Under the pieces are notes generated by a model. That model ran no database searches, was not told the DNA's origin, and worked only from the letters and a program-made list of their open reading frames with translations. The translations under genes were made by a program, and so were the position numbers. This document shows, in pieces, positions 17,135 to 38,309 of a stretch of DNA of 42,072 bases (position 1 is the first letter of the stretch; each line of letters begins with the position of its first letter). The stretch is from a virus, in IMG/VR virus record IMGVR_UViG_3300028399_000012, positions 1 to 42,072 of that record; one strand, written 5' to 3'.

Positions 17135-18109
17135 CTAATACAGCTCATCTTCAATTTTTGCTTGTTTGATAATCTCCGAAAACGGGCTTTCGATGGTCTC
17201 CTCAAATGAACTGGAACCACCGTCCACCGTCTTCGGAAGCTCCGAACGCAGAGACAACTGGTTAGCCGCCTCTTTTTCGAGTGTTTGTGAAACCTGCTTG
17301 GATGTCAGCTCCGAAAGATACTTCTGATAAGCATCCCAGGATTCCTTGACGCTGTTGAGTCCTTTAGCAGCACCATAGGCGACGGCCGCATAAACAGTGG
17401 CTTCGTCGTTACCCTGATCAACAAGCTGCTTGATCTCCTCCTGCGCCCGCCTTTCCATCTCCTTCTGCTGAATGGTCTGATGAATCGGATCGGCCAGCTT
17501 TTCGGCAAGCGCCTTCTGGAGCTCCGGATTCTTCTCAATAGCGTCCAGAATCCAATCCGGAGAAAGATCAGGCTTCACCGCACTCAAATGCTGCTCAAGT
17601 TCTTTTTTGAACATCTTGTAGGCTCCTTCAGGATCAAATTCAGAATTGTAATAATCCAAAAAGTTGCGGAACTGCTTTCCTTCTTCGGAATCGGGGTCAA
17701 CACCAACACTGCGGATGGCTTCATCGGTCTCGTCCCGAGTAGCGTTCTCGGCTCCTCCTTTCGATTCCAGTTGCTCAAGAACTTGAGCCAGCTTGTCTTC
17801 AAGACTGGAAACAGCTTCCAGTCTTTCTTCAATGGTCTTAAATTTGTCAGCCAGTTCGGCGGTCTGTCCGATCTGATTTTTCAGAGCTCCGAGGTCACCG
17901 CTGAATTTTTTATACAGCTCATCATAGGCGTCAGCCAATCTGTCGGCGTCCAGTTTTCCATCCCTGGAAAAAACTTTCCTGGCATAAGATTCGCCTTTTT
18001 CCTCTTTTTGAGGAGGCTTTGGCGCCGAACGCACCTCTTTGAATTCATCGGAGGTATCCGGGAGCTCCTCCATCGTACCGCCCTGCTGAACTTTGGGATC
18101 GTCAGCCAT
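17135..18109 (-). CDS. Scaffold protein
   Basis: The 324-residue protein is acidic and highly charged, Glu/Lys/Gln-rich and predicted mostly coiled coil (for example LADAYDELYKKF, FKTIEERLEAVSSLEDKLAQVLEQLE, residues 60-120), with a Lys/Asp/Glu-rich disordered N-terminus. It has no cysteines or enzyme motifs. This composition and its position between portal and capsid genes are those of internal scaffolds. Ribosome binding site AAGGAG precedes ATG by 8 nt. A 6-3-6 inverted repeat (TTCTCA-AGA-TGAGAA, 18168-18182) lies upstream and may be regulatory. Confidence 0.72.
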   Translation of the reverse strand: MADDPKVQQGGTMEELPDTSDEFKEVRSAPKPPQKEEKGESYARKVFSRDGKLDADRLADAYDELYKKFSGDLGALKNQIGQTAELADKFKTIEERLEAVSSLEDKLAQVLEQLESKGGAENATRDETDEAIRSVGVDPDSEEGKQFRNFLDYYNSEFDPEGAYKMFKKELEQHLSAVKPDLSPDWILDAIEKNPELQKALAEKLADPIHQTIQQKEMERRAQEEIKQLVDQGNDEATVYAAVAYGAAKGLNSVKESWDAYQKYLSELTSKQVSQTLEKEAANQLSLRSELPKTVDGGSSSFEETIESPFSEIIKQAKIEDELY

Positions 18110-18200
18110 GTTACCACTCCTTATGTTTCAGGCCCAAAAGGGTTACCCTGATTTTTTATTACGGGGGTTCTCAAGATGAGAATTATCCCCGCCATAAAAA

Positions 18201-18238
18201 AAGGCCGAACCAATCTCTTGAGAGTTTGATCCGGCCTT
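18201..18238 (-). terminator. Rho-independent terminator upstream of scaffold gene
   Basis: AAGGCCG (18201-18207) pairs with CGGCCTT (18232-18238), with a second small hairpin (CTCT/AGAG) in the loop. On the minus strand the stem is followed by a run of T (18196-18202). It separates the portal transcript from the scaffold-capsid transcript, implying that the latter has its own promoter. Confidence 0.7.
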
Positions 18239-18282
18239 CCACGGATGTGTGGATCAGGCTTAATTGTTGTTGGTATTATAAG

Positions 18283-18468
18283 CTAGCTCCACCGTGAACC
18301 TTTCTTGTAAATAGAAACATTCACGGAAGCAATTTTGCCTTCATTAAAATTTACTTCAATCTTTCCAGTAAACGTATTCTCAAAGAACATCTTACAGTCT
18401 TCGATAACTTCCCCGACCCTGCGGTAATCCTCAACAATGCGCTGTAGTTCATTGATGTCGTATTTCAT
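18283..18468 (-). CDS. Small protein of unknown function
   Basis: The 61 residues read as an N-terminal helix (MKYDINELQRIVEDYRRV) and a beta part with a C-terminal basic end (YKKGSRWS). No motif is recognised. It lies between the portal-side gene at 18487 and the terminator, in the same orientation, so it is likely a late small gene. Confidence 0.5.
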   Translation of the reverse strand: MKYDINELQRIVEDYRRVGEVIEDCKMFFENTFTGKIEVNFNEGKIASVNVSIYKKGSRWS

Positions 18469-32106: not shown

Positions 32107-32742
32107 ATGATCGCTGATTACAAAGATTCGGGGCATGGAATTTTGAATGTTTCGGTAAAATATCCATCTCTCAGGTATATAAATGAGTTCATCAGATTAA
32201 AATGTGCTACAGACTTATTGGAACTGGAAGTATTCCCCAACGCCAAAGAAATTACAGAATCTTTCGCATCATGGAATGCTGTCAGGAAGCACCTATGGAA
32301 ACGGGGTTTTAGTCCAGATCGAAATTTGAATTGCTATGTGATCGGAGATGGAACAACGCCACGAACCGCTGCATTGGTAGCCTTTGTAAGCAATTTCCAT
32401 GTTTTTTCCATAGACCCAAATTTAAGATGGAAGGAAAAATACCGTAATATAAAGAGGCTTACAATTTGTCAATGCAAAATAGAGGATTACGGCAAGCTTC
32501 CTGATAATTCACTAATTTTGCTGGTTCACAGTCACGCAGATCCAAACAACGTATTGAATGCTCTGAATAAAGAGTGCAGCTACGGCATCGTTGTTATACC
32601 TTGTTGTGTTCCGTATAACTCATTCGATAAAGAAGATAGATTAACCAAAATTGCCGATTACGAAGATTGGGGGATTCATTCTCCAGAGAGAAAAGTTAAA
32701 GTTTATGTTCATTACGGTTCTAAACGAAGTATAGCGTCATGA
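32107..32742 (+). CDS. Rossmann-fold, methyltransferase-like protein
   Basis: The 211-residue protein has CYVIGDGTTPRTAALVAF followed by FHVFSIDPNL (residues about 77-102), a motif like the SAM-binding loop of methyltransferases, and LILLVHSHAD and IVVIPCCVPYN in the second half. Catalytic residues are not clear. The stop overlaps the next gene's ATG (ATGA). It may act on RNA or a small substrate; that is inference. Confidence 0.5.
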   Translation: MIADYKDSGHGILNVSVKYPSLRYINEFIRLKCATDLLELEVFPNAKEITESFASWNAVRKHLWKRGFSPDRNLNCYVIGDGTTPRTAALVAFVSNFHVFSIDPNLRWKEKYRNIKRLTICQCKIEDYGKLPDNSLILLVHSHADPNNVLNALNKECSYGIVVIPCCVPYNSFDKEDRLTKIADYEDWGIHSPERKVKVYVHYGSKRSIAS

Positions 32743-33356
32743 GACAGCAGAAAAGAATTACTAAGAAACGTATAATTGAATTTCTTGAAATGATTGGAAA
32801 AAAAGAGAAGCGTAAGTTTAAAAGGGAAACCTACGTCGTTTGGGCCAGCAAGGTTGACGGTAGCTATATTTGCTCCGATGACTTCTCAGTAAAAGATTTT
32901 TACTGGGTTCCAAGGATGTTATTAAAACTCGGAATAACGGAGCAAATCCAGAACTCAAAAAACGACCCGAACAGAGCTGCAAATATTGGTTTTAATCCTC
33001 AAGAACAAAAATGGTATGGATGGTCGTATCGGTCAATGTCATACGGTTTTGGTGTGGGTTCTAAAGTACGCAGAGGAGACATTGCTTATAAACCCACTGA
33101 TCCAGATGACTTTGCAAGAGACGTAGTCGAGTTCTGGAAGGAACCTTTTAAAGACAATGTCAGAGCGGTTATTGAAAAGGACGGTGTTAAGATAGAATGG
33201 GAGTATAACAAAAGACACAAAAACAAGGAACTAATTGGAAAGACAGGTTCAGTTTTCCACCATTTTCCTGAACATTGGGGGCGTGGCGAATGGGAAGCCA
33301 AAACGCTTGAAGACGCAAAACAGATGGCAATTGATTTTGCAGAGAATGTGAGCTGA
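32739..33356 (+). CDS. Conserved phage protein of unknown function
   Basis: The 205 residues contain IGFNPQEQKWYGWSYRSMSYGFGVGSK in two steps, then RRGDIAYKPTDPDDFARDVVEFW, and the C-terminal AKTLEDAKQMAIDFAENV, a pattern I recall from many uncharacterised phage proteins. The N-terminus is basic. It is coupled by ATGA to the Rossmann-fold gene, suggesting a shared role. Confidence 0.52.
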   Translation: MRQQKRITKKRIIEFLEMIGKKEKRKFKRETYVVWASKVDGSYICSDDFSVKDFYWVPRMLLKLGITEQIQNSKNDPNRAANIGFNPQEQKWYGWSYRSMSYGFGVGSKVRRGDIAYKPTDPDDFARDVVEFWKEPFKDNVRAVIEKDGVKIEWEYNKRHKNKELIGKTGSVFHHFPEHWGRGEWEAKTLEDAKQMAIDFAENVS

Positions 33357-33429: not shown

Positions 33430-33645
33430 ATGGACAGTATGAGAGTCTATCAAGTTCACGTGAAGACGACAAACGCTATGAAAGACACTACTACAAATAA
33501 CTGGAAAGATAAGAATAGAGAATATTTTGATTGTGAAAATGGTGTGCTTTACGTCGTAACAAACGATCCAAAAAAGATTTACGATAAATTTTCAAAAGAA
33601 ACAGTAATCAGCATTACAGATATTGGTGTCGGATATGCCTTATAG
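33430..33645 (+). CDS. Small protein of unknown function
   Basis: The start at 33430 follows AGGAG by 6 nt. The 71 residues (MDSMRVYQVHVKTTNAMKD, later NDPKKIYDKFSKETVISIT) are alpha/beta. The gene overlaps the next by about ten bases. Confidence 0.5.
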   Translation: MDSMRVYQVHVKTTNAMKDTTTNNWKDKNREYFDCENGVLYVVTNDPKKIYDKFSKETVISITDIGVGYAL

Positions 33646-33994
33646 TCTTTTGGTTATAGTTGGGCTCATTCTTATATCGCTATATCTTCAATTTCGGGAC
33701 GGTAGCAGATTCCGTCTACTTTTTAAATATATATTGGCTTGGCTGGGCATACTCATTCTGGTTCATGAGTTACCTGTCTTTTTTGGTGATCTTTACGTAG
33801 ATGGGGAGTTATTCATAAACGGCGAATACATTAGCAAAGAGTTTATAAGCTCTCCAGAAGTCAAAAAAATGCTCAATATGCTGCGATTTGAAGAATCTTT
33901 AGCATTTTCACTACCGTTCTGGGCTTTATTTTTAATGTTCGATTGCCTTATTTGGTATTCTAGAGAAGAGAAAAATTTCGTAATGAGACCGTAA
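33635..33994 (+). CDS. Membrane protein of unknown function
   Basis: The 119 residues start MPYSLLVIVGLILISLYLQF, then a second helix (YILAWLGILILVHELPVFF), a short polar domain and a final helix (AFSLPFWALFLMFDCLIWY). It precedes the structured RNA at 34010. Possible envelope or exclusion protein. Confidence 0.5.
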   Translation: MPYSLLVIVGLILISLYLQFRDGSRFRLLFKYILAWLGILILVHELPVFFGDLYVDGELFINGEYISKEFISSPEVKKMLNMLRFEESLAFSLPFWALFLMFDCLIWYSREEKNFVMRP

Positions 33995-34009
33995 GCAAGC
34001 ATCAATACA

Positions 34010-34112
34010 CCCCTGGCAGCGTCAGGATAAACCTGAGCCATACGTACGGCCGTATCGGCTCCCGAGGCGCATAAAATGAAGCCGCTTGCGCTGATAGGGA
34101 ACGCTGCCGGGG
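34010..34112 (+). ncRNA. Compact four-way-junction structured RNA
   Basis: CCCCTGGCAGCGT (34010-34022) pairs with ACGCTGCCGGGG (34101-34112) with one bulged T. Inside, CAGG-ATAAA-CCTG (34023-34035), AGCC-ATACG-loop-CGTAT-C-GGCT (34036-34060) and CCC...GGG with inner GCGC/GCGC (34061-34099) leave almost no unpaired base at the junction. There is no coding frame across it. It does not match a tRNA (no TTCGA) or any ribozyme or riboswitch I can name. Transcription direction is taken from neighbours. Confidence 0.65.
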
Positions 34113-34133
34113 ATAATTTATTGCGATTATATT

Positions 34134-34394
34134 ATGAAAAGACCAATCGAAGATGAGTTTGGTATAAATACGATCCTCATTAAGAGAGATGGCGATGGCT
34201 TTCTGGTAAGTTCTCCGGACGTGCCAAATATCTACGCCTACGCTCCGAATGTTAGAAAGGCAGTAACGGACTATTTGCATGAGCTGAATGAACTATGGCT
34301 TGACCCGTTTTCAACCGATGATAATAAGCTGTCAGAAGAGTGGCTTGAATTAAAGAACAAATTGAGAGAAAACATAGGGAGACGAAAACAATGA
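34134..34394 (+). CDS. HicB-like small protein
   Basis: The 86 residues read TILIKRDGDGFLVSSPDVPNIYAYAPNVRKAVTDYL in two stretches, resembling the partial RNase H-like fold of HicB antitoxins (strand, Asp, Pro, helix). No HicA toxin is adjacent. It may be an orphan regulator. Its stop overlaps the next ATG (ACAATGA context). Confidence 0.45.
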   Translation: MKRPIEDEFGINTILIKRDGDGFLVSSPDVPNIYAYAPNVRKAVTDYLHELNELWLDPFSTDDNKLSEEWLELKNKLRENIGRRKQ

Positions 34395-35502: not shown

Positions 35503-36363
35503 ATGAAAACAATGCATCTCTTCTCTGGTGCTGGCGGCGGTCTTTTGACTGATTTAATTCTCGGACACGATCCAGTTGTGGCGGTAGAAATTGATAAATT
35601 TTGCTGTGATGTTCTAAAAAAAAGGAAAGAAGATGGCTGGTTTCCAAATCTGCATGTGTGGGAAGGAAACATCCAAATGTTCGACCCATCCCAATGGCAA
35701 GGAAAAGTGGATTGTATTCATGCAGGGTGGCCTTGCCAGGATATTAGTGTTGCTGGGTCAGGAAAAGGTATTCAAGGAGAAAGAAGTGGATTGTGGAAAG
35801 AAGTTGTCCGCATTGCTGGCATTATTCGACCACAATACTTGTTCTTGGAAAACAGCCCAGCAATCACTTATAGAGGACTCAATGTTGTTATTACGGACCT
35901 TGCCAGGTTGGGGTATGATGCAGTCTGGGCGGTTATACCAGCTTCCGCAGTTGGTGCGCCACACAGACGTGACAGATGGTGGTGTCTTGCAAAAGCGGCC
36001 GACTCCAAATGCGAGGGATTACAAGGGACAACCAAGAAAGGGAACACGCAGCCGTGGTGGGCGCCGTTCATCCTTACTGGCAGCAGTGAGATATTGGCCA
36101 ACGCCGACAGCGTCGATGCATCACGGTTGGCATCCGAACATGAAAAGAGCTTCGACAGACGACCGATTGGATTATACAATAGAGCGGGAGGCATATCAGA
36201 ATTCAACTGGTGGAAGATTGAATCCAACGTGGGTAGAGTGGCTCATGGGGTGGCCAATAGAGTGGACAGAATTAAAGCGTTAGGTAATGGGTGGGTACCT
36301 TTACAAGCTGCTTTGGCGTTTGTATTGCTTTACAAATTGATTAATTCTGCCCACGAAGAATAA
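35503..36363 (+). CDS. C5-cytosine DNA methyltransferase
   Basis: The 286-residue enzyme has the ordered motifs of this family: LFSGAGGG (residues 6-13, SAM), HAGWPCQDIS (73-82, catalytic Cys78), LENSP (115-119), PHRRDRWW (153-160) and, at the C-terminus, VGRVAHGVANRVDRIKALGNG (about 244-264, motif IX-X). It transfers methyl groups to cytosine in DNA, protecting phage DNA or modifying host expression. The target-recognition region is short. No restriction enzyme is adjacent. A second protein-like frame overlaps residues about 107-260 (see next entry). Confidence 0.85.
   Translation: MKTMHLFSGAGGGLLTDLILGHDPVVAVEIDKFCCDVLKKRKEDGWFPNLHVWEGNIQMFDPSQWQGKVDCIHAGWPCQDISVAGSGKGIQGERSGLWKEVVRIAGIIRPQYLFLENSPAITYRGLNVVITDLARLGYDAVWAVIPASAVGAPHRRDRWWCLAKAADSKCEGLQGTTKKGNTQPWWAPFILTGSSEILANADSVDASRLASEHEKSFDRRPIGLYNRAGGISEFNWWKIESNVGRVAHGVANRVDRIKALGNGWVPLQAALAFVLLYKLINSAHEE
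35633..36283 (+). CDS. Overlapping +1-frame protein inside methyltransferase gene
   Basis: A 216-codon frame runs without stop inside the methyltransferase. From codon about 64 it reads CSWKTAQQSLIED, LPGWGMMQSGRLYQLP, PTPNARDYKGQP, YWPTPTA and GGRLNPTWVEWLMGWP, a set of motifs that I recall from phage proteins annotated as methyltransferase-associated. An AGGAAAGAAG site precedes ATG 35633. The first 60 codons look unspecific. Whether it is translated separately, by frameshift, or not at all is open. Confidence 0.45.
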   Translation: MAGFQICMCGKETSKCSTHPNGKEKWIVFMQGGLARILVLLGQEKVFKEKEVDCGKKLSALLALFDHNTCSWKTAQQSLIEDSMLLLRTLPGWGMMQSGRLYQLPQLVRHTDVTDGGVLQKRPTPNARDYKGQPRKGTRSRGGRRSSLLAAVRYWPTPTASMHHGWHPNMKRASTDDRLDYTIEREAYQNSTGGRLNPTWVEWLMGWPIEWTELKR

Positions 36364-36823: not shown

Positions 36824-37897
36824 ATGATTACCAGGCTATATCCTATTCCGACGGGATTTTTGTTTGTCGGCGAATATTCAAAGGGCGAATTAGAGACTCT
36901 ATCTATCGGTGATTACGGAAAACAGAAGAACATAAAAGCTGATTTTCTTGGTTACAGAAAAGAAATTAACGGGGTTGAGAACGGTTGGTGTATGCCTCTT
37001 TCTGAAAAATGGGTTATCACGGTAAGTACACAGTACGGATGCCCGATGAAGTGTAATTTTTGCGATGTGCCTAATGTCAATTTTAAAGGAAATGCCACTT
37101 TCGACGATTTACGCCGGCAGTTTTATAATGCTATTAGTTTATTTCCGAGTGTAAAGTATACAGATCGTTTGAATCTTCACTATGCAAGAATGGGAGAACC
37201 TATATTTAACCGTAATGTCTTTGATTTTAGTATCTGGCTCCGTAAAAACAAAAGACAGATACAAAATGAAACTGGTCTGCGAATTGAAGTGCTTCATCCT
37301 GTTCTTACAACTTCTCTACCGAGAAAGTTTAAAGAGCTGGAAGATCGTATTATAGAATGGTGCGAGATAAAAAACAACTTGTATTGCGGTCAGGCGGGGC
37401 TTCAGTTTTCTATAAATTCAACAGATGAAAAACAGCGTACTGTAATGTTTGGGGATCAGCAGTTGCATCTTGAGGATCTGTCAGAAATCGCAGAGAAAAT
37501 GCCTGAACCTCTGGGAAGGAAATACTGCTTGAACTTCGCCTATTCAACAGATTTCAAAATTGATGCCAGGAGGCTATCCAGTCTTTTCGACCATAATAAG
37601 TTCATGGTAAAGATTACGCCTATTCACAACAACAATGCTTGCAGAGCCAATAACATAAAAACAGAAAAAGGTTATGAGAGTTATCAACCCTACCGGCGTG
37701 TGGAAGAAGATCTCAAAGAAGAGGGTTTTGATGTTATTGTTTTTGTCCCTTCGATAGACGAAGAAAAAGGGCTGGTAACATGCGGTAATGCTGTACTCGG
37801 AGGAAGTACTTTACAAATAGATACATCAATCATCAAAATAAGAGGAATCGACAATGACTCTCTTGGTGTATCCAGGCAGATTCCAACCACCGCATAA
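36824..37897 (+). CDS. Radical SAM enzyme, RlmN/Cfr-like
   Basis: The 357-residue protein has the radical SAM cysteine motif C73-PMK-C77-NF-C80, the SAM-binding MGEPIFN (residues 123-129) and a C-terminal VTCGNAV (Cys320) where RlmN/Cfr proteins carry their methylene-bridge cysteine (ACGQL). The family methylates C2 or C8 of adenine in 23S rRNA or tRNA. The usual N-terminal domain is reduced. GGAGG precedes ATG. The gene overlaps the nucleotidyltransferase gene by 44 bp. The substrate in phage is unknown. Confidence 0.75.
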   Translation: MITRLYPIPTGFLFVGEYSKGELETLSIGDYGKQKNIKADFLGYRKEINGVENGWCMPLSEKWVITVSTQYGCPMKCNFCDVPNVNFKGNATFDDLRRQFYNAISLFPSVKYTDRLNLHYARMGEPIFNRNVFDFSIWLRKNKRQIQNETGLRIEVLHPVLTTSLPRKFKELEDRIIEWCEIKNNLYCGQAGLQFSINSTDEKQRTVMFGDQQLHLEDLSEIAEKMPEPLGRKYCLNFAYSTDFKIDARRLSSLFDHNKFMVKITPIHNNNACRANNIKTEKGYESYQPYRRVEEDLKEEGFDVIVFVPSIDEEKGLVTCGNAVLGGSTLQIDTSIIKIRGIDNDSLGVSRQIPTTA

Positions 37898-38309
37898 AGG
37901 CCATTTTAAAGCTATTAAAACCTGCCTGGAGAAGTTTCCTGACGCAAAGATAATTGTATCCATAGACGTAAGAAAAAAAGACGAAAACAATCCATTTACT
38001 CTTGAGTTTAGAAGGGCTATATTTGAAAAATATTTATCCGATTTCATTGATTGCGGCCGTGTCGTAATTAGCTGTCATCGCTGTAATGAACTATCAGTAA
38101 ACGGATGCTTAACAGCAATTAAAGACTGTTATCCTATTGCCGATGGTATAATCGCAGGAAAAGATAGGGCTCCTTTATTCAGAAACTTCGGCTTTAACGT
38201 TATAGAAATACCAGAAAGATACTATAATTTGTCATCATCCAAAATCAGAGAAAAGATAAAAAACAAGAACAAGATAACTACTGATTTATACCAATCCTTT
38301 TGCTGCTAA
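37854..38309 (+). CDS. NMN adenylyltransferase-like nucleotidyltransferase
   Basis: The 151-residue enzyme has GRFQPPHKGHF (residues 8-18, HxGH) and SSSKIRE (127-133, ISSTxIR-like), the two signatures of the cytidylyltransferase superfamily, and length and layout close to NadM-type NMNAT. It would make NAD from NMN and ATP. It overlaps the radical SAM gene and has its own AGAGGAA site. No nicotinamide phosphoribosyltransferase is adjacent, so the pathway is not complete here. Confidence 0.72.
   Translation: MTLLVYPGRFQPPHKGHFKAIKTCLEKFPDAKIIVSIDVRKKDENNPFTLEFRRAIFEKYLSDFIDCGRVVISCHRCNELSVNGCLTAIKDCYPIADGIIAGKDRAPLFRNFGFNVIEIPERYYNLSSSKIREKIKNKNKITTDLYQSFCC

Follow-up and report, generated by a model that had tools for sequence, protein, structure and literature searches.

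A predicted four-way-junction RNA in a GC-rich intergenic gap of the early region of a divergent tailed phage

Introduction

Structured non-coding RNAs can be found by looking for GC-rich gaps in genomes that are otherwise poor in GC (PMC8723152). The candidates from the DIMPL pipeline are stable multi-helix folds in such gaps, and their motifs have homologues and display covariation (PMC8723152). Phages are also known to carry small intergenic RNAs, the Racrs, which are RNA anti-CRISPRs that mimic the CRISPR repeat (PMC10651486).

The element described here was found in a viral contig and resembles the DIMPL candidates both in its GC-rich setting within a GC-poor genome and in its stable multi-helix intergenic fold, but differs from them in that no homologue was found. 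With the Racrs it shares small size, an intergenic position in a phage and the nearness of an anti-defence gene. Unlike these, it is a 102-nt four-way fold with no recognisable repeat; Cas1 was not found in the 67% complete genome bin (MAG) that holds the contig. The four-way form of the hairpin ribozyme and other small Rfam ribozymes are similar to the element in having a four-way junction with almost no unpaired junction bases. The element is, however, without an Rfam match, and the loop sequences that are conserved in the hairpin ribozyme were not seen in it.

Results

The window analysed is an entire contig of 42,072 nucleotides (IMG/VR virus record IMGVR_UViG_3300028399_000012) in a 2.65-Mb bin. 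It represents a divergent tailed phage whose terminase, portal and major head protein are encoded by the − strand. Small early genes occupy the + strand from about 25.6 kb, and the element is located among these; the skew of the contig switches at about 25.5 kb. The early region encodes a Tad6-family protein (Thoeris inhibitor), and further counter-defence genes may be present there. This protein displayed only a distant similarity to Phage NCTB (30% identity). The bin appears gammaproteobacterial from its proteins, but its role as host is uncertain, since the tetranucleotide correlation between window and bin (0.80–0.83) is lower than that of two bin contigs between themselves (0.94). Several virion proteins start with signal peptides ending in AQ or GQ, which are common in Bacteroidota-like groups. 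Based on these signal peptides and a k-mer composition unlike that of the bin, the phage may have been misbinned.

Three other features of the contig were recorded. The second very stable structure (18130–18290, − strand, z −5.6) is a GC-rich hairpin followed by a T run, a clear intrinsic terminator, with another strong hairpin directly after it; its neighbours are the portal region on one side and the gene at 17135–18109 on the other. A radical-SAM protein (36824–37897, + strand) is weakly similar to RlmN/Cfr. Its identity is 53% with a Bacteroides phage Versailles protein and reaches 72% with IMG/VR contigs that otherwise have little in common with this phage, and its gene overlaps a nucleotidyltransferase-like gene (37854–38309). 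At its start the contig carries two identical copies of a 99-nt sequence (1–99 and 915–1013), probably an assembly artefact of the contig end.

On the + strand, which is the coding direction of both flanking genes, the MFE structure and the pair probabilities delineated a closing stem (P1) and three hairpins meeting in a four-way junction (Table 1). A sequence-only reading had proposed a 103-nt element closed by twelve pairs; the 12-pair stem was recovered, one of its pairs being G-U, whereas the start had been set one base early, position 34010 being unpaired. The same reading had described three abutting hairpins with one or two unpaired junction bases, in agreement with the fold, where A34036 is the sole such base. 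Hairpin III is more complex than a simple hairpin by virtue of its internal loop and long apical loop. The loops of hairpins II and III are complementary over four pairs (−6.3 kcal/mol by duplex calculation) and could form a kissing contact, as predicted from this complementarity. Every pair was retained when 20–250 nt of flank were added, and the mean pair probability was 0.96. The + strand folded with an MFE of −52.1 kcal/mol compared to −47.6 kcal/mol for the − strand, a difference due to two G-U pairs.

Table 1. Coordinates of the element, its parts and the surrounding genes.
Feature	Position	Strand	Description
Gap	33995–34133		139 nt
Paired element	34011–34112	+	closing stem and three hairpins
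P1 5′ arm	34011–34022	+	pairs with 34101–34112; MFE and pair probabilities
P1 3′ arm	34101–34112	+	pairs with 34011–34022; MFE and pair probabilities
Hairpin I	34023–34035	+	4 pairs, loop AUAAA, abuts P1; MFE and pair probabilities
Hairpin II	34037–34059	+	3+5 pairs flanking bulged C, loop UACGGC; MFE and pair probabilities
Hairpin III	34060–34100	+	4+6 pairs, 2x4 internal loop, 15-nt apical loop including AUG; MFE and pair probabilities
Upstream 123-aa ORF	33623–33994	+	probable start 33635; no family match
Downstream 86-aa ORF	34134–34394	+	without Shine-Dalgarno; no family match
Possible 26-codon ORF	34076–34156	+	AUG in hairpin III apical loop; GAGG at 34064–34067
Tad6-family protein	32739–33356	+	Pfam E 2.8e-33
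C5-cytosine methyltransferase	35503–36363		

The MFE of the element corresponds to a z of −4.8. A single one of 20,000 dinucleotide shuffles reached this energy, and the p estimated by fitting an extreme-value tail was about 3e-6; a closed four-way fold of similar span was seen in 2.7% of the dinucleotide shuffles. When a 103-nt window was slid along the contig, the element had the lowest + strand MFE (−52.9 compared to −40.8 kcal/mol at the next site, approximately 12 kcal/mol apart) and was also the most extreme site after GC correction. The minima of 16 block-shuffled contigs ranged from −35.8 to −45.7 kcal/mol, none reaching the element. In this single sequence, the fold is real and statistically exceptional, beyond what is expected by chance.

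The gap is of ordinary length for the region and contains no long ORF reading the same way as its neighbours, which bears out the earlier description of a clean intergenic gap. Its GC content of 53% is the highest among the contig gaps of 20 nt or more, the other gaps being mostly at 28–44%, and the element itself reaches 62% in a contig of 42%. The stop codon of the upstream ORF lies 16 nt 5′ of the P1 stem. The start of the 86-aa ORF has an anti-SD energy of 0.3 kcal/mol; most early genes have a good SD, whereas some early ORFs, including the Tad6-like gene, are likewise without one. A single-sequence structure prediction for the 86-aa protein gave a strand-strand-strand-helix-helix order at low confidence (pLDDT 55) and was dropped as evidence, being too uncertain. 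The GAGG and AUG of the possible 26-codon ORF form a start with an anti-SD duplex of −5.9 kcal/mol, and this ORF runs beyond the AUG at 34134 and thus overlaps the start of the 86-aa ORF. The GAGG-AUG start could be a chance occurrence.

No match to Rfam 15 was obtained at gathering threshold in the whole window, nor at E up to 5 in positions 33900–34200 with riboswitch, ribozyme and phage RNA families included, and ARAGORN found neither tRNA nor tmRNA. The earlier statement that the element belongs to no recognised RNA class is in line with these searches. A resemblance to group II intron domain V was dropped as it had no Rfam match, and one to the tail of a type I-E repeat (GGATAAACC) was dropped as post hoc. 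Blastn against phages yielded only short matches with E of about 8, against plasmids and E. coli records no meaningful match to the element, and against 185 related genomes short chance matches only.

A covariance model (R1), built from the single sequence and therefore of low power for distant relatives, was scanned against 369 class-level and 398 phylum-level genomes, which are overlapping samples. It retrieved the element itself and one 30-bit match, and hence no homologue among several hundred genomes, the match (L012, genome G284) being rejected for its location inside a high-GC coding sequence. Scans of the whole IMG/VR and GTDB genome collections, which take exact patterns only, gave chance matches only. 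In IMG/VR, the first half of the element had three matches, which were rejected as the fold was absent. Patterns of the closing stem matched 95 IMG/VR and 9 genome sequences, from which R1 left one, a weak match with its stem forced by the pattern. Also rejected was locus L026, which matches the loop of hairpin III over 20 nt; the match is located on the opposite strand of a phage capsid-like gene and is without extension.

For the phage itself, the searched collections yielded no close relative, including an IMG/VR search by way of the terminase, capsid, portal and 86-aa proteins. A search with the radical-SAM protein led to eight loci in which this was the only clearly shared gene, with an additional methyltransferase-like match in one (L016); the element was present in none of the eight. 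This absence of homologues in the collections searched does not count against the structure. Homologues with compensatory changes are the defining evidence of a class, and because such were not found we have kept the element out of any new class. It is best regarded as a putative structured intergenic phage RNA, of a broad kind already known.

Discussion

Of what was first read from the letters, the structure, its junction and the lack of a known class have stood, while the suggested functions of riboswitch, ribozyme or small RNA have gained no positive support. The reading we prefer, held at somewhat less than even confidence, is that of a structured intercistronic RNA of the + strand early transcript, acting in cis on translation or stability. 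It is suggested by the 86-aa ORF being without an SD and by the GAGG-AUG 26-codon ORF overlapping its start. The element would be transcribed within an early polycistronic mRNA, on which a ribosome terminating at the upstream stop would just clear the stem. In its closed form it would shut off the 86-aa ORF from upstream translation. Expression of the 86-aa ORF would hinge on whether the 26-codon ORF, which begins in hairpin III and overlaps it, is translated: ribosomes entering there would unwind the 3′ arm of P1 and, by coupling, bring translation to the 86-aa ORF. The closed fold would keep this coupling in check or shield the mRNA. Additionally or instead, the fold may be a stability or processing barrier separating the two cistrons. 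Both the translation of the 26-codon ORF and its coupling to the 86-aa ORF are proposed from the arrangement of the reading frames.

In favour of this cis-acting role are the stability of the fold relative to shuffles and to other + strand sites, its persistence in longer context, its position in the most GC-rich gap, and the more stable strand having the same direction as the flanking genes. Against it, the GAGG-AUG may have arisen by chance, other early ORFs are also without a good SD, and the AUG of the 86-aa ORF is outside the fold, so that the fold alone leaves it unoccluded.

The main rival, less probable but to be taken seriously, is a discrete small RNA, either processed at the stem from the early transcript or expressed from a promoter of its own. 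It would act on the host in trans, as decoy, antisense or protein-binding RNA, and possibly serve counter-defence. Being compact, closed and free of unpaired ends, the fold resembles a free-standing RNA, the 15-nt loop of hairpin III is open, and the Tad6-like anti-Thoeris gene and the cytosine methyltransferase gene lie approximately 650 bp upstream and 1.4 kb downstream, respectively. However, no promoter-like or terminator-like site was called at the element, and an intrinsic terminator with GC stem and U-run was not found there, the tail 3′ of the stem (AUAAUUUAUU) being without a U-run in contrast to the clear terminator near 18200. Nor does the element look like a CRISPR-repeat mimic, and the incomplete MAG gave no Cas1. 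That the element constitutes a new class of phage RNA, with a compact four-way fold and docked loops, processed from the early transcript and either targeting a host process in trans or regulating the following gene in cis, we consider unlikely.

An element acting at the DNA level, such as a small inverted-repeat insertion, a recombination site or an origin hairpin, would make the fold a property of a single DNA strand. A GC content foreign to the contig, a 12-pair terminal inverted repeat with an imperfect middle and a − strand folding nearly as well would all be accommodated by this. Such an origin is nevertheless improbable: the element occurs in single copy in both contig and MAG, its flanks are by eye without convincing target duplication, so that neither mark of a mobile inverted repeat was found, no match was detected in plasmids, E. 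coli or phages, and the skew switch is located elsewhere. More doubtful again is a fold produced by chance and without function. The availability of one sequence only, with no homologue in the collections searched, is compatible with it, but the rarity of equally stable shuffles, the distance to the next + strand site and the uniformly weaker block-shuffled contigs argue against it.

Least probable of all is a ligand-binding cis-regulatory RNA (riboswitch) or self-cleaving ribozyme of an undescribed class, a proposal without positive support for which a four-way junction with stacked helices, an internal loop, the possible kissing of loops II and III, the position before a gene and the missing Rfam match might be cited, but for which the single sequence reveals no conserved core, one unpaired junction base and near-perfect helices leave scant room for a pocket, and the downstream gene points to no ligand.

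Many functions in counter-defence and take-over are encoded, still unassigned, in the early regions of divergent phages, and those based on RNA are easily overlooked because annotation seeks proteins only. A single well-folded sequence, from a phage that is itself an orphan, is a lead for homologue searches in metagenomes and not an established class; if expressed, the element would be a clean candidate for an RNA-based counter-defence or take-over function.
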